Part shown: piece by piece, positions 14,909-52,984 of the stretch
How positions within the stretch are numbered: position 1 is the first letter of the stretch
Layout of the letters: every line of letters begins with the position of its first letter
Assembly (NCBI GenBank): GCA_003597935.1
Contig: QZJT01000039.1
Span: 16,953-80,952, forward strand
DNA from: Phycisphaerales bacterium
GTDB taxonomy: Bacteria; Planctomycetota; Phycisphaerae; UBA1845
Reading direction: 5' to 3'
Length of the DNA stretch: 64,000 nucleotides
Notes under the pieces: generated by a model
Told to the model about the DNA's origin: nothing
Seen by the model: only the letters and a program-made list of their open reading frames with translations
Database searches by the model: none
Position numbers and translations under genes: made by a program

Positions 14909-16798
14909 CTACGGCTCGAGGATGCACTGGCATCCATTGCCGGTGGCCTGCACCGTGCAGTAGGCGTCCTTGTTCGGATCGGCCTTGGTCTGACACGTCG
15001 TCTTGACGGTCTTATTCGCACCGGTCGGGCAGGAGCTGCCACCGCTCTTGCACGCCCCGCGGCAGATCACGGAACCCACCGGCAACGGCACGCACGCGGT
15101 GCAGTTGTCGCCGACCAGCGGGGCGGCCGTGGTCGTGTATTTGCACTCCCGATCGGGATCGCCGCCGCACAAGACCTCCCTGGGCTCGAAGCAATCGAAC
15201 GGCCGGAGCAGTTCCAGCGTGACGTTGCCGACGCTGCCGGGCTGGGCGAACGACGCCTTCTTGCCGCGGATCGCCACCTCGTGGACGATGTCGTTGACCG
15301 CCAGCAGGATGGTCTCGCCGGCATGGCGGGCGTCCGTGAAGATCGTAATGGCCTTCAGCTTCCCTTTGCGGCTGCACTTGGTCTTGAACTTGCTGACATC
15401 CTCGCAGGGGATTCCCTCCGGCCCACCCGGCCGAACGGCCTCGAAGCAGAGGATCTGGTGGACGTTCGGGAAACCGATCTGGGCCAGATCGACCCACTGG
15501 TTAGTGCGGTTGCACTCGATCGCCCGCAGGAAACTCGGGCTTTCCTGTCCGAACGGGTTGGATCCCGGCCAGAAGCCGAAGTAGTCGGTGGCCTTGTGGT
15601 TGTACACCTCGATGACCATAGGGCCGGGCGGTGCGATCGGGCCGCGCATCTCGACAGTGCGCCGCTGGAACTGCGTGCCGTCCGGCACCAGGTCCTGCTG
15701 GCTGTCGAGCAGCTCGGATCCCTCGAACTGCGGGAAGTTCGGCGCGTGCCAGACGTTGATGTAGACTTGGCACGGCCGGCCCTCGCCGGTGGCGTCGCGG
15801 CAGGCCTCGACGGCGTACTCGACGTTGCCGATCCGGGTCGGCTGCTCCAGCTTGAACACGCGGGCGTGACCGTTCTCCGTCACCGTCCGGCCGCCGTCGG
15901 CGGAGCACGCCACGCTCCCGCGCGTCGGCTCCTGGCGGATGGAGCCGCATTTCTTGTCGGTGTCGACGCAGTCGCACAGGCCCGCGTCGCGGTCATAGCG
16001 GCACACCTTGGGATCGAAGCAGGAGTTGTTGACGCACTTGATCTTTACGCGAATGACGCACGAGCCGAACCCGACGCAGCCGCAGTCGATGATGCCCTGG
16101 CAGACGCCCCAGTCGCACGGCTCGTCCGGGTCGCTGACGCACTCGTTGACGTTCTGCACGTCGCAGTCGCGCATCGACACGCCCGGCCCCGGTCCCTCGT
16201 ACTCGATCTCCTCACCATCCTCGAGCACGCCACGAAGATGGGCGAGCCGCAGTTCGCCGTTTTCATCAATGCGATAGCCCACGTCGCGCACCAGCAGTTC
16301 CCGGTCGGTATCGCCGCAACCCCACAGGATCTGCCGCCCGACAAAATCGGCCGGTCCGTCGATCAGCTCGACGTCCGGCCACAGAGTGTTGTCGACGTCC
16401 ACGGCGCGGCCGTCGTCCATCAGACCGCTGAGCCGGACCAGCACGATCCGGCCGTTGCGCACGCCGTAGGCGATTTCGCTGACGTAGACGCGCTGCACGC
16501 CTTCACCCCCGTCGTCGCGGGGCGTGGCCAGCAGGCTCCCGGCGGCGTCCGCGAAGGAGACGATCTCCCGCGGGCCGGCGATGGGAAGTCCGGCCCGCAC
16601 GTAGGCGGGCGCCGGTTCGACACCGAAGGCCGAGTCGTCCGCAGCCGGGCTGAGCACGAACTCCGCCGGGCCGATGGCGTGCGTCCAGTCCGCATCGAGA
16701 GACGCGGCCGCAAGGGCCCACGACTGCGCGGACGCGACGGCGACGCACAGCGCGCCGACCACGGGTCCGCACAACCTACACCACGTTCCGGTTTTCAT
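14909..16798 (-). CDS. Secreted cysteine-rich protein with divergent family-B-like region and Cys-rich tail
   Basis: Signal peptide MKTGTWCRLCGPVVGALCVAVASA; VSKFKTKCSRKGKLKAITIFTDARHAGETILL similar to family B start; many Cys. Confidence 0.75.
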   Translation of the reverse strand: MKTGTWCRLCGPVVGALCVAVASAQSWALAAASLDADWTHAIGPAEFVLSPAADDSAFGVEPAPAYVRAGLPIAGPREIVSFADAAGSLLATPRDDGGEGVQRVYVSEIAYGVRNGRIVLVRLSGLMDDGRAVDVDNTLWPDVELIDGPADFVGRQILWGCGDTDRELLVRDVGYRIDENGELRLAHLRGVLEDGEEIEYEGPGPGVSMRDCDVQNVNECVSDPDEPCDWGVCQGIIDCGCVGFGSCVIRVKIKCVNNSCFDPKVCRYDRDAGLCDCVDTDKKCGSIRQEPTRGSVACSADGGRTVTENGHARVFKLEQPTRIGNVEYAVEACRDATGEGRPCQVYINVWHAPNFPQFEGSELLDSQQDLVPDGTQFQRRTVEMRGPIAPPGPMVIEVYNHKATDYFGFWPGSNPFGQESPSFLRAIECNRTNQWVDLAQIGFPNVHQILCFEAVRPGGPEGIPCEDVSKFKTKCSRKGKLKAITIFTDARHAGETILLAVNDIVHEVAIRGKKASFAQPGSVGNVTLELLRPFDCFEPREVLCGGDPDRECKYTTTAAPLVGDNCTACVPLPVGSVICRGACKSGGSSCPTGANKTVKTTCQTKADPNKDAYCTVQATGNGCQCILEP

Positions 16799-23182: not shown

Positions 23183-23866
23183 CTAGGCGCAATCGCTGCG
23201 CTTGCCCTTCAGCTTGCACTTGCCGTCACCACCGCCCGGGCAGGCAATGGTCGTCCTGATCTTCTTGGCGCAATCCCCGACGTCCTCGCACTCCGCCTCG
23301 GTCCCGTAGTCGGACCCTTCCGCCGGGCAGTCGTCGCACTTCTTGGCTTTGCTCTTCTTGAGCGTGTAGACGCACGTCGGACCGCCCAGACCCTGAGAAG
23401 CCGGCGTGAAGTCCGCCGCAGTAGCGCCGCCGACGGTGCCGGCCAGCGTGCTGTAAAGCAGCGCCGGCTCATCGAGCGCGGCGGTAGACGTGCCGCTCCA
23501 GTTGAGCTTCTCGTCCTGGCTCTGCGGGATCCAGTACGCGAGCACGAAGCCGAGGGTCGGTCCGTTGTGACCGCCGCCGGACGAGGTGTAGGCGGTCCAG
23601 GGACCGATGGGCAGGTCGTTGGGGTCGCCGACGAAGTTCGTCAGCGGGCTGGGCTGGTTGTTGGCGATATCGCCGAAGATGAACCATCGCCAACCCATGC
23701 CCTGAGTCCAACGATCGTCGACGGAGAGTTCGAACTCGTACTCGAACCGCCCTCCGCCGATGTCGACGTAGTCATACGCCAGGTGAATCTGCGGCTGGGC
23801 CATCGCCGACGGCACGATGAGCGCACCCAGTGCCAACACCACCGTCGCGATACTGATCTTCTTCAT
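23183..23866 (-). CDS. Secreted protein with C-terminal 8-Cys Lys-rich domain (family A)
   Basis: Signal peptide MKKISIATVVLALGALIVPSAMAQ; ends CVYTLKKSKAKKCDDCPAEGSDYGTEAECEDVGDCAKKIRTTIACPGGGDGKCKLKGKRSDCA. Confidence 0.88.
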   Translation of the reverse strand: MKKISIATVVLALGALIVPSAMAQPQIHLAYDYVDIGGGRFEYEFELSVDDRWTQGMGWRWFIFGDIANNQPSPLTNFVGDPNDLPIGPWTAYTSSGGGHNGPTLGFVLAYWIPQSQDEKLNWSGTSTAALDEPALLYSTLAGTVGGATAADFTPASQGLGGPTCVYTLKKSKAKKCDDCPAEGSDYGTEAECEDVGDCAKKIRTTIACPGGGDGKCKLKGKRSDCA

Positions 23867-24556
23867 TTCGATTTGCTCCCCTCAAAAAAAGGAACAATAA
23901 GCCGACGGACCGCGCGCTTACGCGACGCGCTCGACCGCCGAACCTGATTCCCAAGGACACCCCCGCTGCGCTCGCCTGTGCCGCCCGCGGGGGCACGTGT
24001 GAATGCTCTGCCGAGCGTCTGGTAAGTCTCCCACCCGAGTCGGGCAGAGCGATCCGGTAGCGGCCCGCTCCGCGTCTTGAACCCGGAGTGTAACGAATTC
24101 CACCGGCAGGTGCAACCCCTACGAAGTGTAACGAATCGTGAGGTTGCGAGACGTCGCCGGCGTGGCGTCGATCCGGGCGGACAATCTTCGCCATCGCCTC
24201 CCCTGCGCGAAAGGCCCGCTCGGGCGCAGCGGGCGATACTCGGACCACCCTTGCGACATCCGCGGCACCCGTCGCGCTCCCCCTGCGGGGCATACGCCGA
24301 AGTGTCAGCGGGGCGGCGAAACCGGCGGCCGGCGCGCAATGGCACGGGCATCCTGCCGTGATCGCACCTGGCGCGGTGCAACCAACGGCCTGGAAGACCG
24401 TGCCACGCGCCCGGCTCGCCTCATGTGTCCCGAACCCAGCCACGCGCTGCCACGTCGCCGCGCTACCTCCGGCGTCGCCGGCAAACTCGACGCGCTTGGG
24501 CGCCGGCGGCCGGCAGAAGCCGCGGTTCACTGGCCGCACGCGGTGCAGGAGGCGAT

Positions 24557-25234
24557 TCAAGCACAGTCGCTGCGCTTGCCCTTCAGTTTGCAGGTGCCGT
24601 TGCCGCCGGGGCAGGCGATGATCGTCTTGATCTTCTTGGCGCAATCTCCGACGTCTTCACATTCCGTCTCGGTCTCGTAGTCGGACCCTTTCGCTGGGCA
24701 ATCGTCGCACTTCTTGGGCTTGCTCTTCTTGATCGTGTAGACGCACGTCGGCCCGCCCAGGTCCTGAGTAGCCACGGCGAAGTCCGCCGGGGTGGCGCCG
24801 CCGACTGTGCCGGCGATGGTGCTGTAGAGCAGCGCCGGCTCATCCAGTGCGGCCGTGGAAGTTCCGCTCCAGTTGAGCTTTTCGTCCTGGCTCTGTGGGA
24901 TCCAGTAGTCGAGGACGTAGTGCAGCGTGGGGCCGTTGTGACCGCCGCCGGACGAGCCGTAGGCCGTCCACGGTCCGATGGGCAGGTCGTTGGGGTCGCC
25001 GACGAAGCTCGTCAACGGGGACGGACAACTCCGGCAGTCGCCGAAGATGAACCAGCGCCAACCCATGCCCGGACTCCAACGGTCGTCCAGAGAGAGTTCG
25101 AACTCGTACTCGAATCGCCCTCCGCCGATGTCGACGTAGTCGTACGCCAGCAGAATCTGCGGCTGGGCCACCGCGGCCGGCACGATGAGCGCACCCAGTG
25201 CCAGCACCACCATCGCGACACTGATCTTTCTCAT
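24557..25234 (-). CDS. Secreted protein, tandem paralog of 23183..23866, family A C-terminus
   Basis: MRKISVAMVVLALGALIVPAAVAQ; near-identical body; ends CVYTIKKSKPKKCDDCPAKG...CKLKGKRSDCA. Confidence 0.88.
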   Translation of the reverse strand: MRKISVAMVVLALGALIVPAAVAQPQILLAYDYVDIGGGRFEYEFELSLDDRWSPGMGWRWFIFGDCRSCPSPLTSFVGDPNDLPIGPWTAYGSSGGGHNGPTLHYVLDYWIPQSQDEKLNWSGTSTAALDEPALLYSTIAGTVGGATPADFAVATQDLGGPTCVYTIKKSKPKKCDDCPAKGSDYETETECEDVGDCAKKIKTIIACPGGNGTCKLKGKRSDCA

Positions 25235-25519
25235 TTCGTTACACTCCCCTGAACAGATGAGGAACGGCTCTGCGCAATCACGCGACGCGCTGGACCGTCG
25301 AGCTTGATTCCAAAGCAACGCTCCGGCGAGGCTCGCGCGCGCCACCTGCGGGGCACGTGTCGATGTACCGCCGTGCGTCTGACAGGTCTCCCACTCCCCT
25401 GCGCCAAAGAGGCTAGCGGCGAGCCACTCCAGCGCTCGAACCAGTAGCATAACCGGATCGGCGGGCGAGTGCAAGCCCGCGCGTCAGCGGTCAGGGCGGC
25501 TGGGTGCGTGACGAGATCG

Positions 25520-25640
25520 GCGGGGCTGCGAGTATGCTCCGTCAGGCGTGTGGCACCGGCATCTTGCCGGTGGTTGCGGCGAAGCCGCGACTGGCATGGC
25601 CTGGAAGGCCATGCCCACCGGCTGGAAGCCGGTGCCACAC
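25520..25640 (+). repeat. Modular multi-hairpin dispersed repeat (~120 bp)
   Basis: Hairpins CACCGGCATCTTGCCGGTG, GCGGCGAAGCCGC, GGCATGGCCTGGAAGGCCATGCC, CACCGGCTGGAAGCCGGTG; inverted homologous copy at 43378-43497. Confidence 0.92.
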
Positions 25641-25657
25641 TGGGGGGGGCAGGAAAG

Positions 25658-25691
25658 AAAAAAGCGGACCACCCCGCTGGGGCGGTCCGCC
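25658..25691 (-). terminator. Rho-independent terminator downstream of the 25769 gene
   Basis: Minus strand GCGGACCGCCCC-AGC-GGGGTGGTCCGC then TTTTTT. Confidence 0.85.
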
Positions 25692-25768
25692 CTCGGACAC
25701 TCTGCCGTTCGCGCGTTCAGTGCCGGGGATCACCCCGCCGGATCACGAGCGAAAGACCACTCCCGCGA

Positions 25769-26527
25769 TCAGGCGCAGTCGCTGACCTTGCCCTTGATCT
25801 TGCAGGTGCCGTTGCCGCCGTCGGGGCACGGGATGATCGTCTTGATCTTCTTCTTGCAGTCCTTCACCGTCTCGCACTCCGCCTCGGAGGTGAATGCATC
25901 GCCGACGTTCGGACAGACGTCGCAGCGCTTGGCCTTGCTCTTCTTGATCTTGTAGATGCAGTTGTTGCCGCCGCGCTCGATGATCTGCATGTCGTCCATG
26001 TCGATGAACGCGCCGCCGAAGAGCTTGCCGATCACGTCGATCTCGTGGAACGCAGCGCCGTCCGTCTGCCAGCCGTTCCAGTGCCACAGGCAGTCGCCCT
26101 CGCCGGTGGCGGCGATGGCGCGGCCGATCTCATTGCCGCCATCGTCGCGGAAGATCATCGTCGCGTCGTTGTTCTCGCCCAGGTTCGGCGCGTTGGAGCC
26201 GAAGAACCCGCCGAAGAGATCCTGCGGCGGATTCAGCGTATAGCGGTAAAAGCCGCCGGCGCTGCCCGTGAAGCGCACGCCGCCGTGGGGACGGATCACG
26301 CAGCGGAACGACCAGCCGCCGGTGATGTGGGCGCCGCTGTTACCCGGCGTACACAGGGTGCTGGCGCCGCCGAACACGCCGCCGATGATGCACGGATTGA
26401 ATCCCGGAGAGTTTTGCGTCTCGAATCCTTCGGACACGTCGCCGGTGAACTCCGGCACCGGCGTCTGCGCGGAAGCGACCCCGGCCATGACCGCCATCAG
26501 AGCGATCGCCCACAGACCCTTTCTCAT
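25769..26527 (-). CDS. Secreted protein with family A 8-Cys C-terminus
   Basis: MRKGLWAIALMAVMAGVASAQ signal; ends CIYKIKKSKAKRCDVCPNVG...CKIKGKVSDCA. Confidence 0.87.
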   Translation of the reverse strand: MRKGLWAIALMAVMAGVASAQTPVPEFTGDVSEGFETQNSPGFNPCIIGGVFGGASTLCTPGNSGAHITGGWSFRCVIRPHGGVRFTGSAGGFYRYTLNPPQDLFGGFFGSNAPNLGENNDATMIFRDDGGNEIGRAIAATGEGDCLWHWNGWQTDGAAFHEIDVIGKLFGGAFIDMDDMQIIERGGNNCIYKIKKSKAKRCDVCPNVGDAFTSEAECETVKDCKKKIKTIIPCPDGGNGTCKIKGKVSDCA

Positions 26528-26849
26528 GACATTCCTCCCAAAAAAAGAACGGACGTTCGTCGCGCGACGTTCCCCAACGCCGCCGCGACAAAGTCGATTT
26601 CACTCGACTCATCCGGCGCCGGCCGCGGGCCGGAAGCCTGCGGGCGCACGCCTGGCAGAGATGAACTCGTACCCGGAGGCAGAACCGCAACCACTACGGC
26701 GACCCCCTCGACGTGACGAGCCTCACTCGTGCGGGAGCGATTGTAGCAGAAACGACACGTCAGATAAAGCCCCCGCCGGCGGTTTTCTGCAGGAGAATCG
26801 GAATTCACCGACCATGCGGCGGAATCCCCAACGATAGCTCCGCGCCGCG

Positions 26850-27110
26850 GCGCGGTGTGACGCCGGTGCTCTGCACTGGGGCCGGGCGGCGGTGTGGTCT
26901 AGCAAGATGCTCTGCTGTGGGGCCGCACGGCGGTGAGATGTGACGAGGGCACTCCGCTCTGGAGCCCCGCCGCGGTGAGATGTGAGGAACGTGCTCTGCT
27001 CTGGAGCCGCGCAGCGGGCGATGGGCTGTAGCCGCGGGTGACGCCCGCAGACGGGCTTCACCCGCGGCTACGGCCCTGGGCCTCATTCGCGGCCGCAGAC
27101 CGGAGCGCGC
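26850..27110. repeat. Composite intergenic repeat, second locus
   Basis: About four ~48-bp TGCTCTGC.../GGAGCCGCGC units followed by GTAGCCGCGGGTG...CATTCGCGGCCGCAGACCGG. Confidence 0.85.
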
Positions 27111-27326
27111 CCCGAGCGTCGCTGTGGGGGAGTTCTCACGCGATACGCAAGTGCTCCTCCACACGGGGTTCGATCGGGTCTCGGCCGGCGCCTGATCCTG
27201 CCGCATAAAGCAAGGCCGCCCCGACAGGAGGCCGCCCTGGCAGGACGCGGCCCTGGCAGGAGGCGGCCGGCACTCAACGCGTGGGTGTTCGCACCCCGGC
27301 GAGGTGTACGCCTTCCCGCGGCTCCG

Positions 27327-28004
27327 CTACCCGCAGGCCGCCCGTTTGCCCTTCAGCTTGCAACTGCCGGGGCCGTCGGGACACGCCGTCTGGGTCCTGA
27401 TCTTCTTGCGACAATCCTCCACGTCTTCACACTCGGCGAAGGTGGGCAGGTTGTCGCCGGGCGCCGGGCAGCTTTCGCAGCCGCCCTTGGCCTTGCTCTT
27501 CCTGACGGTGTACTGGCATTTGCCGCCCGTGAAGAACTCGACAATGATCGTCTGGCTTGCACCGTTGCAGGTGGCGGTGTTGACGCCGCCCCAGTTGGCG
27601 TTGCCGATACAGGGCCGCACGATGTACTGCGGATTGGGGCAAGCACAGATGCTGCCGGCGGCGCTGAGTTCGACGCCCCCGCCGCAGCCTCCGGTCATCC
27701 AGGTGCGCCCGTCGCACGGATAGCTGAGCCGCGCCTGGTTGTTGGTATTGATGTTGGCGGCGATCTGAGCGATGACGTCCGGGTCACCGCACGAGACGCC
27801 TTCCGGATCGTTGGATCCACGCAGCACGAGCAGGCGATAATCCTGTTCCACCAGCTCCGCCGCGAAAGCCCGCCATGCCGTACACTGGGCCGGCGAGGGC
27901 TGCCCCTGAACGAAGTCCTGTTCGAATACGATCTGTCCGTCGGCGGACGCGACCCACGTGGCGAGCACGGCCACTCCCACTCCACACGCCTTTCTCGTCC
28001 TCAC
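27327..28004 (-). CDS. Secreted protein with family A 8-Cys C-terminus (GTG start)
   Basis: (V)RTRKACGVGVAVLATWVASADGQ; ends CQYTVRKSKAKGGCESCPAPG...CKLKGKRAACG. Confidence 0.83.
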   Translation of the reverse strand: MRTRKACGVGVAVLATWVASADGQIVFEQDFVQGQPSPAQCTAWRAFAAELVEQDYRLLVLRGSNDPEGVSCGDPDVIAQIAANINTNNQARLSYPCDGRTWMTGGCGGGVELSAAGSICACPNPQYIVRPCIGNANWGGVNTATCNGASQTIIVEFFTGGKCQYTVRKSKAKGGCESCPAPGDNLPTFAECEDVEDCRKKIRTQTACPDGPGSCKLKGKRAACG

Positions 28005-28339
28005 TTTGATCTCCCTTCGCCAGGATAGCACGGCGGTGCCCGGAGGCCGCTCTCCGAACCGGCGCGGCGCCGCGACAGGGGCGAAGTCTCTTCGCCGCGG
28101 TGGCCGCGCAGATGACCCCGTGGGCGATCGGCCCCGCTGAGCACGCTGCTCGCCGTGAACGACCCCTCCAAGCCCCGATGCGACGCCGGGTAGAATAGCA
28201 GTTTTAACCCGCAAGTGCAACGGAATGGCGACGGCGCGGGCCGCCCGACTCGCCGGCTCGCGGCTGGCACGAAACGTGTAACACTCATGCTGCAAGGAAA
28301 GCACGACCGCCGTCGGCGGCCTGCAGCAGGAGTCCGTCC

Positions 28340-29758
28340 ATGTTTCACGACGCTCGCGAGGCCCTTCGGTACATCGCCGGCCATGACATCGCCATGGTGG
28401 ACCTGAAGGTAGTCAGCATCGCCGGCCAGTGGCTGCACCTGACCATCCCCGCCGCCCAGTTCACCGAGAAGCACTTCGAGGAGGGCATCGGCTATGACGG
28501 TTCGGCGGGGTCCGGTTTCGCCAGCGTCGAAAGCGGCGACGTGGTGGCGCGGCCGGAGCCGGGCACTGCGTTCGTCGATCCCTTCTGGCGCGAGCCGACG
28601 CTGAGCTTCATCTGCGAGACCGTCGCGGCCGACAACCGCGCCCCGTTCGCCCACGACCCGCGGACGATCGCCCGGCGGGCGGTCGAGTGCCTGAAGCAGG
28701 CGCGCGTCGCCGACGCGGCGATGATGGCGCCGGAGTTCGAGTTCCACGTCTTCGACCGCCTCAGCGTGCGTAACGGGCCGTATCAGACCCTGGTGGAGAT
28801 CGAATCGCACGAAACGGCACCGGACGGGACGGTGGCGCGGATCGGGCCGCGGAAAGGCTACCTGCGCCTGCCGCCGTCCGATCAACTGCACAACCTGCGC
28901 TCCGAAATGGCCATCCTGCTTTCCGCGATGCACGTGCCGGTGACGTATCACCATCACGAGGTCGGCGCGCCCGGTCAGTGCGAGATCGAGACGGAGCTGG
29001 CCCCGCTGGTGACCGCCGCCGACCGGGCGATGCTCATCAAGTACGTAGTCAAGAACGTCGCCCGCAAACATGGCAAGATCGCCACCTTCATGCCCAAGCC
29101 GATCTACAGCGAAGCGGGCAACGGGATGCACGTACACCAGAAGCTCGACCAGCAGGGCACGCCGCTGTTCTTCGACAAGACCGGCCGCAACTACGCCTCG
29201 CTGAGCGACCTGGCGCTGCAGTACGTCGGCGGGCTGCTCTCGCACGGGCGGGCGGTCACGGCGCTGACCAATCCCTCGACGAACTCGTTCAAACGGCTGG
29301 TGGCGGGCTTCGAGGCGCCGGTCAACCTGTTCTTCTCCCTGGCGAACCGCTCGGCCGCCATCCGCGTGCCCAAGTACGCGGTGTCGCCGCATGCGAAGCG
29401 CATCGAGTACCGTCCCCCCGATTTTTCCGGCAACGTGTACCTCTCGCTGGCGGCGCTGCTCATGGCGGGCCTGGACGGGATCCTCCAACGCACCGACGTC
29501 AAGGAGCACGCTTTCGGCCCCTACGACGTGGACGTGGCCGCGCAGCCCAGCGAGTTCCGCGCCCGCGTCACGCCGCTGCCGCGAACGCTCTATGACGCGA
29601 CGCTGGCGCTGGAGGCGGATCACGCCTTCCTGACCCGCGGCGAGGTCTTTCCCGAATCGTTCATTCACAACTGGATCGCCGCCCGGCGACGTGAGGAGTC
29701 CGCCGAAATCGCCTGCCGCCCGCACCCCTATGAGTATGAGTTGTACCTGGACGTGTGA
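28340..29758 (+). CDS. glnA: Type I glutamine synthetase
   Basis: GYDGSAGSGFASVESGD, MAPEFEFHVFD, GNGMHVHQKL, NPSTNSFKRLVAGFEAPVNLFFSLANRSAAIRVP motifs. Confidence 0.95.
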   Translation: MFHDAREALRYIAGHDIAMVDLKVVSIAGQWLHLTIPAAQFTEKHFEEGIGYDGSAGSGFASVESGDVVARPEPGTAFVDPFWREPTLSFICETVAADNRAPFAHDPRTIARRAVECLKQARVADAAMMAPEFEFHVFDRLSVRNGPYQTLVEIESHETAPDGTVARIGPRKGYLRLPPSDQLHNLRSEMAILLSAMHVPVTYHHHEVGAPGQCEIETELAPLVTAADRAMLIKYVVKNVARKHGKIATFMPKPIYSEAGNGMHVHQKLDQQGTPLFFDKTGRNYASLSDLALQYVGGLLSHGRAVTALTNPSTNSFKRLVAGFEAPVNLFFSLANRSAAIRVPKYAVSPHAKRIEYRPPDFSGNVYLSLAALLMAGLDGILQRTDVKEHAFGPYDVDVAAQPSEFRARVTPLPRTLYDATLALEADHAFLTRGEVFPESFIHNWIAARRREESAEIACRPHPYEYELYLDV

Positions 29759-29941
29759 GGAAGAAGGGGACGAGGGAATCGCGGAGTCAGGGAGTGAGGC
29801 AGCGAGGCAGTGAAGGAGTGAGGGCGATGCGTAGGTCGCCGCGGCGCGGCGCCGGAGCGGCGCACCCAGGTCGCGTCGCGCCGCAGCGCGGCGTCGTTCG
29901 CGTGGCTGGCGGCACGTGGTCGAGGGACTGAAGCGCCGAAA

Positions 29942-29977
29942 CAAAAGCACGCCGCGGGGAAACCCCCGCGGCGCACG
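29942..29977 (-). terminator. Rho-independent terminator downstream of the 30013 gene
   Basis: Minus strand GTGCGCCGCGGGG-GTTT-CCCCGCGGCGTGC then TTTTG. Confidence 0.8.
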
Positions 29978-30012
29978 TGGTCATCATCCCGCCGATGGGT
30001 GTCAGCCGATCA

Positions 30013-30927
30013 TCAGCCGCACGAACGGCGCTTGCCCTTGATCTTGCACGTGCCGTTGCCGCCGCGCGGGCAGGCGATCGTCCCCTTCAGCTTCTTCTCG
30101 CACTCTTTCACATCCTCGCAGGCCGCATCGGAGCGGAATTCCGCTCCCTTCGGCGGACAGGTCTCGCACCCGCCCTTGGCCTTGGACTTCTTGATCAGGT
30201 AGTTGCAGCGGGCGCCGCCGCCGGCGAACGCCAGGCCGTCGTGCGAGCCCAGGCCGGTCTTGACGGTGGTGCGGGCGTACCCGTTGGCGATGTCGTACTT
30301 GAATAACCTGCCCTGCCAGTCGATCTGCCAGAGCACGTGCTGTTCCGGGTCGTACGCCAGGCCGCTGTTGTCCGTGAACTCGCCGTTGAACACCAGCGTC
30401 GCTTCGCCGGTGTTGCGGTCGATGCGGTAGAGGTCTCCGGCGCCGTCGGAGACGCCCAGCAGTTCGTCGTCGCGGGAGTTGTAGGCCAGGTTGCCCAGCC
30501 GCGGCACGATCGTGCCCCGCGGAGTGACGGCGCCCGTGCTTCGATTCACCGTGTACAACGGCTGGTTCGGGACGAATGCGCACGCAAAGAGCACGTCGTT
30601 TTGCGAGTCGTAGCCCAGCCCGAACAGGTCGGTCACGCCGTGTGCGCCGACGGTGCCGGACTGGCCGGTGTTCGGATCGATCTTGTGCAGCGATCTGGTT
30701 CCACGGCCGTCAACCGCGTAAAGCGTATCCGTGCTGCTGTCCCACTCCAGACCGCCAAACTGAAATACCTCGTTGAGCGGGCCGACGTCGGTGAACTCCA
30801 GCGTGTTGGTGTCGATAGCCACGAGGATGTCGCCGGTCTCCCTCACGGTGTACAGGGTTCCGGCTTCGACGATGCCGGCGGATGCCAGGACGCCGGCAAT
30901 CAATCCGAGTACGATGGACTTTCTCAC
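30013..30927 (-). CDS. Secreted beta-propeller-like protein with family A 8-Cys C-terminus (GTG start)
   Basis: (V)RKSIVLGLIAGVLASAGIVEAG signal; NTGQSGTVGAHGVTDLFGLGYDS repeats; ends CNYLIKKSKAKGGCETCPPKG...CKIKGKRRSCG. Confidence 0.86.
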   Translation of the reverse strand: MRKSIVLGLIAGVLASAGIVEAGTLYTVRETGDILVAIDTNTLEFTDVGPLNEVFQFGGLEWDSSTDTLYAVDGRGTRSLHKIDPNTGQSGTVGAHGVTDLFGLGYDSQNDVLFACAFVPNQPLYTVNRSTGAVTPRGTIVPRLGNLAYNSRDDELLGVSDGAGDLYRIDRNTGEATLVFNGEFTDNSGLAYDPEQHVLWQIDWQGRLFKYDIANGYARTTVKTGLGSHDGLAFAGGGARCNYLIKKSKAKGGCETCPPKGAEFRSDAACEDVKECEKKLKGTIACPRGGNGTCKIKGKRRSCG

Positions 30928-42318: not shown

Positions 42319-43179
42319 TTATTCACCCATACAGGCGTCCGCTTCCTCGTCACACGCCCCCTCCGGGCACGGCGGCGTGCCGGTCAGGCACGAGCATCCG
42401 TCGCAGGTCTCCTGCCCGTTGCAGAATGCGCCGTCGTCGCACTCCTCGTCGGATACGCAGGGCGCCAGGCAGCCGCCCAGTTCCTCGTCGCAGGCGTTGC
42501 AGAAGTCCCCGGTCCGCGGGTTCTCGGTCGGGCACAACGGCTCGCCAGCCAGGCAGGCGCAGGCGACGCACGTCTCAGTCCCGTTGCAGATCAGTCCGTC
42601 GTCGCAGTCCGCGTCGGAATCGCACGGGCAGGCGCTGCACTCGCCGGTGAGTTCATCGCACTCTTCCCCCTCCGGGCAGGGCGGCGCGCCCGGCCGGCAG
42701 GCGCAGTCCTCGCAGACTTCCTGGCCGTTGCAGAAGACGCCGTCCGTGCAGTCCTCGTCGCTTTCGCACAGGCATCGCTCGCACGCCCGCAATGCCTCGC
42801 TGCACGGGTCGTCGCCGCAGTCGACCGGCTCCCCCGGGACGCAGCCGCCATCGACGCATTGCTCCTGACCGTTGCAGAACAGCCCATCGTCACAGTCCGT
42901 GCTGGAAGCGCAGGGCGGGATCATGGTACACAGCCGCAACGACTCGCTGCACACGCAGTCCGGACAGATGTCCGACTCGCAGGGCGGCCCGTCGGCGCAC
43001 GTCCCGTCCGACTGGCAGACCTCCCGACCGTTACAGAACACGCCGTCGTCGCAATCGGCGTCCGACCGGCACAAGCCGTCATCGGCGGGCGGGCTGACCG
43101 TGCAGCCGGGCCCGAGCAGGGCCGCGGCGATGCACCCGATGGCGGCCGCTCCCGCCAGTATGGCATGAACAATCCTCAT
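42319..43179 (-). CDS. Cys-rich repeat (probable lipoprotein) with DCDDGxFCNGxExC repeats
   Basis: Repeated DCDDGVFCNGREVC / DCDDGLFCNGQEQC / DCTDGVFCNGQEVC / DCDDGLICNGTETC / ECDDGAFCNGQETC. Confidence 0.85.
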   Translation of the reverse strand: MRIVHAILAGAAAIGCIAAALLGPGCTVSPPADDGLCRSDADCDDGVFCNGREVCQSDGTCADGPPCESDICPDCVCSESLRLCTMIPPCASSTDCDDGLFCNGQEQCVDGGCVPGEPVDCGDDPCSEALRACERCLCESDEDCTDGVFCNGQEVCEDCACRPGAPPCPEGEECDELTGECSACPCDSDADCDDGLICNGTETCVACACLAGEPLCPTENPRTGDFCNACDEELGGCLAPCVSDEECDDGAFCNGQETCDGCSCLTGTPPCPEGACDEEADACMGE

Positions 43180-51847: not shown

Positions 51848-52984
51848 CTAGCCGCAGCTATCGCGCTTGCCCTTGATCTTCTTGCAGAAGCCGTCGCCGC
51901 CGTCCGGGCAGTCGATCTTCTTGACCTTGATCTTCTTGGCGCAGTCGCCCACTTCCTCGCAGGCCTCGCCGGAGTCGTAGAGATCGCCCTTGGCCGGGCA
52001 ACTGTCGCACTTCTTCGCCTTGGAGTCCTTCTTCAGGGCGTACTGGCAGGCATCGCCGCCGCCACCGGTTCCGATCAGGACGAACGGCCGGTCGCTCGGG
52101 GCGCCGGAGCACCCGTCGACGTTCGCCGCCCAGGCGCCGCTGGACACCGTGAAGAACCGGCTGTTGTCAGTCTGCGGATTGCCCGGGGCGGAAACGGGCA
52201 GCCACGGGCCGGAAGCGCCCTGTCCGCGGGTGGCGAACTCGATCCAGTAGGTACCGGCCTCGAGCGGGTCGAGCCAGCTCATGTCGAAGGACACGGTCTT
52301 GATCACCCGGGCCTGGTCCAGCGGGGTGGCCGGGTTCACGCGGTTGGCGTGCGAGTACTCGCTGGTGCCCATCAGGCGGTTGGTGATCATATCGCCGCCG
52401 ATGATGTTGCCGCCCCCGCCGGGGACGCCATCGTAGATCTGGATGTAGATCTCGGTGATGAGCTGCTCGCGCGTCGCGCCGGTCTGGTAGATCCAGGTGA
52501 TCCCCTGCGCGATGTCCCACGTCTGGCCCTCCGGCACGACGAAGTCGTCGGCCTGGTGGAAGGCCGTCACCAGCGTGTTGTTGCCGAACGTGCAGTTGGG
52601 AGGCTCAAAGGCGGAGATGTCCTCGCCGTTGATGCCCAGGCCGCCCTGCACGAAGATGTCGTCGGCGCCGTTGTTGACGAGCACGTCATTCTCGCCCGTC
52701 CCGCCGTTGCAGTACCGCTTGTTCCCGTTCGGGTCCTCCTCGCAGGCGGCGGCCACGTGCGTGCAGCCGGCCTGCACGCAGGACACGCCGCCTTCGGCCT
52801 GCGCGAACACGCTGCACACGCAGTCGGCGGCGACGCTTGGCCCACCCGGAGTCGGCGCCGGCGAACTGAGCGTCGGCATCGCCTCGTCGTGGAGCAGGTC
52901 ATCCGCGTACCGCGGCTGATCGGCCGACACCACGCCGGCCAGCGCCAGGCACGCCGCGACCGCACAACACTTCCTTACCAACAT
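51848..52984 (-). CDS. Secreted protein with family A 8-Cys C-terminus
   Basis: MLVRKCCAVAACLALAGVVSAD signal; ends CQYALKKDSKAKKCDSCPAKG...CKKIKGKRDSCG. Confidence 0.86.
   Translation of the reverse strand: MLVRKCCAVAACLALAGVVSADQPRYADDLLHDEAMPTLSSPAPTPGGPSVAADCVCSVFAQAEGGVSCVQAGCTHVAAACEEDPNGNKRYCNGGTGENDVLVNNGADDIFVQGGLGINGEDISAFEPPNCTFGNNTLVTAFHQADDFVVPEGQTWDIAQGITWIYQTGATREQLITEIYIQIYDGVPGGGGNIIGGDMITNRLMGTSEYSHANRVNPATPLDQARVIKTVSFDMSWLDPLEAGTYWIEFATRGQGASGPWLPVSAPGNPQTDNSRFFTVSSGAWAANVDGCSGAPSDRPFVLIGTGGGGDACQYALKKDSKAKKCDSCPAKGDLYDSGEACEEVGDCAKKIKVKKIDCPDGGDGFCKKIKGKRDSCG

Follow-up and report, generated by a model that had tools for sequence, protein, structure and literature searches.

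The window analysed here is a stretch of 64,000 nucleotides (GC content 66.5%) from a Phycisphaerae MAG whose assembly comprises 4.30 Mb in 155 contigs, with an estimated completeness of 77% and contamination of 1.9%. It contains six ORFs, all on the minus strand and with stops at 23183, 24557, 25769, 27327, 30013 and 51848, which end in the same Cys-rich domain, referred to below as the tail. As originally predicted, a signal peptide is evident in each of the six proteins. Protein 1 (23183..23866, ATG start; tail of 63 residues plus stop, 23183..23374) and protein 2 (24557..25234; 62 residues plus stop, 24557..24745) are tandem duplicates with bodies that are 84% identical. Clustering of the bodies identified those of protein 3 (25769..26527; tail of 63 residues plus stop, 25769..25960) and protein 6 (51848..52984; 66 residues plus stop, 51848..52048) as unique. 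The body of protein 4 (27327..28004, with an inferred GTG start; tail of 63 residues plus stop, 27327..27518) is common to two proteins encoded elsewhere in the same genome (L014 and L065). Protein 5 (30013..30927, GTG start; tail of 64 residues plus stop, 30013..30207) carries a propeller-like DUF4394/DUF6923 body. Thus the N-terminal bodies, described in the original prediction as mostly unrelated, fall into five families, the exception being the duplicated pair. The range 23183-30927 given for the family was too narrow, since the sixth copy (51848-52984) lies outside it.

Alignment of the six tails (62-66 amino acids) reveals 26 invariant columns. Eight of these are Cys and are present in every copy, as had been claimed for a shared C-terminal domain of about 63 amino acids. 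After the last Cys there is exactly one residue, either A or G, before the stop (6/6). Copy 5 is the sequence modelled with AlphaFold2; profile E-values for the window tails range from 1e-27 to 4e-33. No TM helix, hydrophobic stretch or terminal Arg cluster was seen in the aligned tails.

A profile built from the six window tails was used to search the host genome. It returned 68 matches at E<=10, 65 of them at E<0.01, distributed over about 50 contigs, a copy number far beyond chance. For comparison, PEP-CTERM as first described occurred in a median of eight proteins per genome and in 65 in Verrucomicrobium spinosum (PMC1569441). The tail lies within eight residues of the stop in 65 of the 67 matches examined, and exactly at the stop in 35. 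The matches are therefore mostly terminal rather than internal, but the earlier statement that the tail is always flush with the C-terminus does not hold for the genome as a whole: in two proteins (L040 and L059), which differ in their remaining sequence, it is located near the N-terminus, following the signal peptide. In addition, one protein of a sister genus (L074, also numbered L227) has two tail-like domains in tandem at its C-terminus.

The tail is rich in Lys, which accounts for 17.1% of its residues compared with 1.5% in the preceding 150 amino acids, and K/(K+R) is 0.77 compared with 0.25. The tail has a net charge of approximately +7 and is attached to slightly acidic bodies, frequently by way of a glycine-rich linker. 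We found no conserved cleavage motif before its first Cys.

A signal peptide was called in 52 of the 59 complete carriers, using a simple heuristic rather than SignalP. We clustered 64 bodies, three of them from the sister genus, and obtained 39 sequence clusters (E<1e-5), of which 30 are singletons; this rules out restriction of the tail to one protein, or N-terminal, family. Identifiable bodies include propeller-like DUF6923/DUF4394, ThuA and WD40 domains, and that of L008 scores just below threshold against choice_anch_R (29.4 bits for a cut-off of 30). CCLPDGxC...C...C-form repeats occur in three of the tailed proteins (L014, L060 and L066). A candidate processing enzyme did not emerge from a comparison of neighbouring genes: what recurred beside the tail genes was limited to antisense shadows and a single generic kinase/anti-sigma group. 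The related kinase/anti-sigma-like ORFs of this group adjoin the tail genes L037, L040 and L055 and are probably generic for planctomycetes.

The number of Cys residues is even in all 59 complete tails of the host genome (eight in 51, ten in 6 and twelve in 2). In one clade of five tails, two Cys were acquired jointly: one lies in the loop that follows the third Cys, the other two residues before the last. Sister-genus tails carry 12 Cys in 12 of 13 cases; the exception (L092) has one further Cys in its extension. The even counts and paired gain, together with export of the carriers, argue for disulfides, whose pairing is putative. Of the two possibilities raised initially, four disulfides or metal ligation, the same observations thus favour the first and speak against the second. 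For copy 5, AlphaFold2 predicts a compact beta fold (pLDDT 89), its strands lying at residues 2-11, 23-25, 39-45 and 53-62, and a sister-type tail was modelled with the same strand order (pLDDT 73). The tail is therefore likely, on the basis of these models, to adopt a small beta fold. Foldseek searches with the tail models, including those against the PDB, retrieved no relative, but such small folds are difficult for Foldseek.

No existing Pfam or NCBIfam family covers the tail. The window tails have no match in Pfam, NCBIfam or the PDB sequences, and 40 diverse tails gave only sub-threshold matches to Pfam and NCBIfam, chiefly to Zn_ribbon_6 and WAP; we found no description of the tail in the open-licence literature. 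The WAP four-disulfide core (PF00095) resembles the tail in its eight Cys and its C-x5-C spacing, but the best E-value was 0.027, in 2 of 40 tails, and none of the aligned tails has the adjacent CC pair of WAP. This identity was rejected, as was that of a zinc ribbon, for which there are only sub-threshold matches and with which the Cys parity, fitting disulfides, does not agree.

Most known tags for C-terminal sorting consist either of a short motif followed by a TM helix and a basic end or of the beta-sandwich of the T9SS. The original prediction had noted that the tail does not resemble PEP-CTERM, GlyGly-CTERM or MYXO-CTERM, and this was borne out both by the profile searches and by the lack of a TM helix or terminal Arg cluster. 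PF07589 (PEP-CTERM) matches neither the tailed proteins of the window nor the 40 tails, and MYXO-CTERM, GlyGly-CTERM, LPXTG and IPTL-CTERM match neither 55 tailed proteins nor the 40 tails. As in the PEP-CTERM/exosortase system (PF07589, PF09721), a single C-terminal module is found on diverse signal-peptide proteins in tens of copies per genome, and PEP-CTERM also occurs on homologues of tail-bearing bodies; it is, however, a motif of about 24 amino acids with a TM helix and a basic end, whereas the tail is a soluble Cys-rich domain of about 63 amino acids. MYXO-CTERM/myxosortase shares with it a C-terminal position, dozens of copies per genome and invariant Cys, but differs in having a TM helix, an Arg cluster and a single Cys, which is lipidated, where the tail has an even number of 8-12 Cys and no TM helix. 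The T9SS C-terminal domain is, like the tail, globular, folded and C-terminal, and acts as a secretion signal. It is a beta-sandwich, to which the tail has no Pfam or NCBIfam match and no Foldseek fold match in the PDB. Finally, the NCBI choice-of-anchor domains (for example, choice_anch_R, NF041539) are bodies reused with alternative C-terminal anchors, as observed here, but these models describe the body and not the tail. The tail thus fails the sequence or the architecture test of each known tag tested, although it probably works in the manner of these tags.

The distribution of the tail is narrow. In a set of 114 genomes from the order, clear examples of the tail were confined to the genus of the window and one sister genus, where four genomes have 4-9 matches each; three further single matches near E 0.01 have the appearance of chance. 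None was found in 391 other genomes sampled from the phylum, and the class sample added none. When sister-type tails were compared with 84,980 species genomes, only the sister genus was recovered (MAG_25, Bin_14R, BroJett003 and SJ659, labelled Phycisphaerae, Phycisphaerales or Planctomycetota). Window-type tails found no relatives in the species-genome contigs, a set from which their own genome is perhaps absent. The two types are homologous (hhalign probability 95.3, E 2e-8). The name BroJett003 suggests an anammox reactor (its origin is taken from the name only), a setting in which proteins of the surface and matrix have practical importance.

Tail type follows the genus and not the body. 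Homologous bodies from the two genera are up to 63% identical, while their tails are on average 34% identical, compared with 33% for random cross-genus pairs. When carried by unrelated bodies, tails share 50% identity within the host genome and 71% within the sister genus. On the tail tree the genus label changes 3 times compared with 17.4 for shuffled labels, the tree being based on a short alignment and its bootstrap unsettled. In each genus a few tails cluster with the type of the other, suggesting that lineage-specific amplification probably contributes. Recent DNA amplification is ruled out: identity at 4-fold sites in the host genome (0.533, with 0.510 expected) is close to saturation, implying that the tails are kept alike by selection on protein sequence rather than by recent copying. 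The sister genus is less saturated (0.624, with 0.500 expected).

In genera that lack the tail, we followed the sequences of body homologues through to the C-terminus and assigned PEP-CTERM, IPTL and dockerin labels by eye. Body A9 (L028 in the host genome) carries the tail in the host (G000) and in G094. Elsewhere it ends in PEP-CTERM (six loci: L233, L236, L238, L241, L242 and L243), in dockerin-like modules (four loci: L235, L237, L239 and L240), in a different Cys-bearing tail (three loci: L229, L230 and L231) or in a tail of about 100 amino acids (three loci: L232, L234 and L244). Body A6 has a PEP-CTERM end in G048 (L146). Body A7 has PEP-CTERM in L184 and IPTL-CTERM-like ends in L165, L168, L169 and L170, and many of its other homologues have longer ends with no recognisable tag. 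Family A10 is too narrow to show tag swaps. Interchangeable surface-anchoring modules would be expected to show such a pattern, which indicates that the tail fills an anchor or sorting slot; a function at this level is well supported. The different Cys-bearing tail of L229-L231, which belong to the sister genus, occupies the C-terminal 80 amino acids or so (CGRFKNLACKG...NARGKWKYS...HTATACGDTKTC), and a rough pattern search found none in the 64-kb window. The tail of about 100 amino acids (TGTCPG...GACGGFVQLV...) occurs in another family of the class.

Two exosortases are also encoded in the host genome, as are about ten PEP-CTERM proteins distinct from the tailed ones. The tail is thus not a simple replacement for that system and would work in parallel with it. 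No paralogue with PEP-CTERM in place of the tail was found in the host genome, and G093 provided one weak match.

Many unrelated exported bodies, a near-fixed C-terminal position and the presence of other tags on homologous bodies are the generic features of a sorting tag. We therefore favour, with a probability of about 0.6 and by analogy with known systems, a lineage-specific C-terminal targeting or anchoring module that would deliver or dock secreted proteins at the cell surface or matrix. The carrier would first be exported by Sec, after which the tail of about 63 residues would fold as a small beta domain with a strongly basic surface and four stabilising disulfides. It would then direct its carrier to the cell surface or extracellular matrix, or dock it there, probably through one shared partner, which could be an anionic surface or matrix polymer or a receptor. 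In related bacteria, PEP-CTERM, IPTL-CTERM-like or dockerin-like ends take its place on the homologues. We infer a single partner, an anionic ligand and a tail that stays on the protein instead of being cleaved off. The sorting, attachment or matrix tag originally proposed is in this way supported by analogy, through a slot shared with known tags and a tail that tracks the genome rather than the body. Several observations fit it less well: the N-terminal copies in L040 and L059 would be easier to reconcile with a binding domain than with an export signal confined to the C-terminus, the tails of the sister genus contain less Lys, the genus clustering could also have arisen by separate amplification in each lineage, and no recurrent neighbour is a candidate receptor or enzyme.

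The tail might instead be a folded export signal, recognised by secretion machinery in the outer membrane and perhaps cut off afterwards, as happens to the C-terminal domain in the T9SS. Its near-constant position and globular predicted fold would agree with this, there is a precedent for a beta-sandwich C-terminal export signal in the T9SS (PMC4804311), and a tail type that differs by genus points to co-evolution with such machinery. We nevertheless consider it unlikely given the lack of a match to the T9SS C-terminal domain family, of a conserved cleavage motif and of a C-terminal position in two copies. Slightly less likely is a polymer-binding or adhesive domain with no sorting role, which would bind anionic polysaccharide or mineral and have been shuffled onto many exported proteins. 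Although the positive charge, the N-terminal copies, the tandem domains of L074 and the absence of an enzyme among neighbouring genes all agree with such a domain, the near-fixed position and the slot of sorting tags in homologues do not. It overlaps the docking tag if binding itself provides the anchor. The preference for K over R, in a genome of high GC content whose bodies prefer R, could also reflect a covalent tag in which conserved lysines are oxidised or isopeptide-bonded into a matrix; this is improbable, as the sister genus has tails with much less Lys and more Arg, R sometimes stands at K positions, and no cross-linking enzyme was identified. A recently spread mobile or selfish sequence devoid of function, which the many copies and lineage restriction might bring to mind, can be virtually dismissed since saturated 4-fold sites, a conserved protein and preserved Cys parity indicate old copies under selection.

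Returning to the targeting or docking module, it is conceivable, though less likely than not, that it belongs to an undescribed Phycisphaerae sorting or matrix-assembly system, parallel to exosortase, in which a folded, basic, disulfide-bonded tag is read by a dedicated genome-specific receptor or translocon. A lineage-restricted disulfide-rich tag in 65 copies, matching nothing in the family and structure libraries searched, would extend the modes of surface and matrix targeting of Gram-negative-type bacteria. Tag swaps on homologous bodies could be used directly in searching for the partner of the tail, and the profile itself groups dozens of exported proteins, most of which have no family match.

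Two other Cys-rich proteins are encoded on the minus strand of the window. That at 14909-16798, which has no significant Pfam or NCBIfam match, has a Cys-rich C-terminal end unlike the tail. The other (42319-43179), with no Pfam match, contains repeated CDDGxFCNGxExC-type Cys-rich units.
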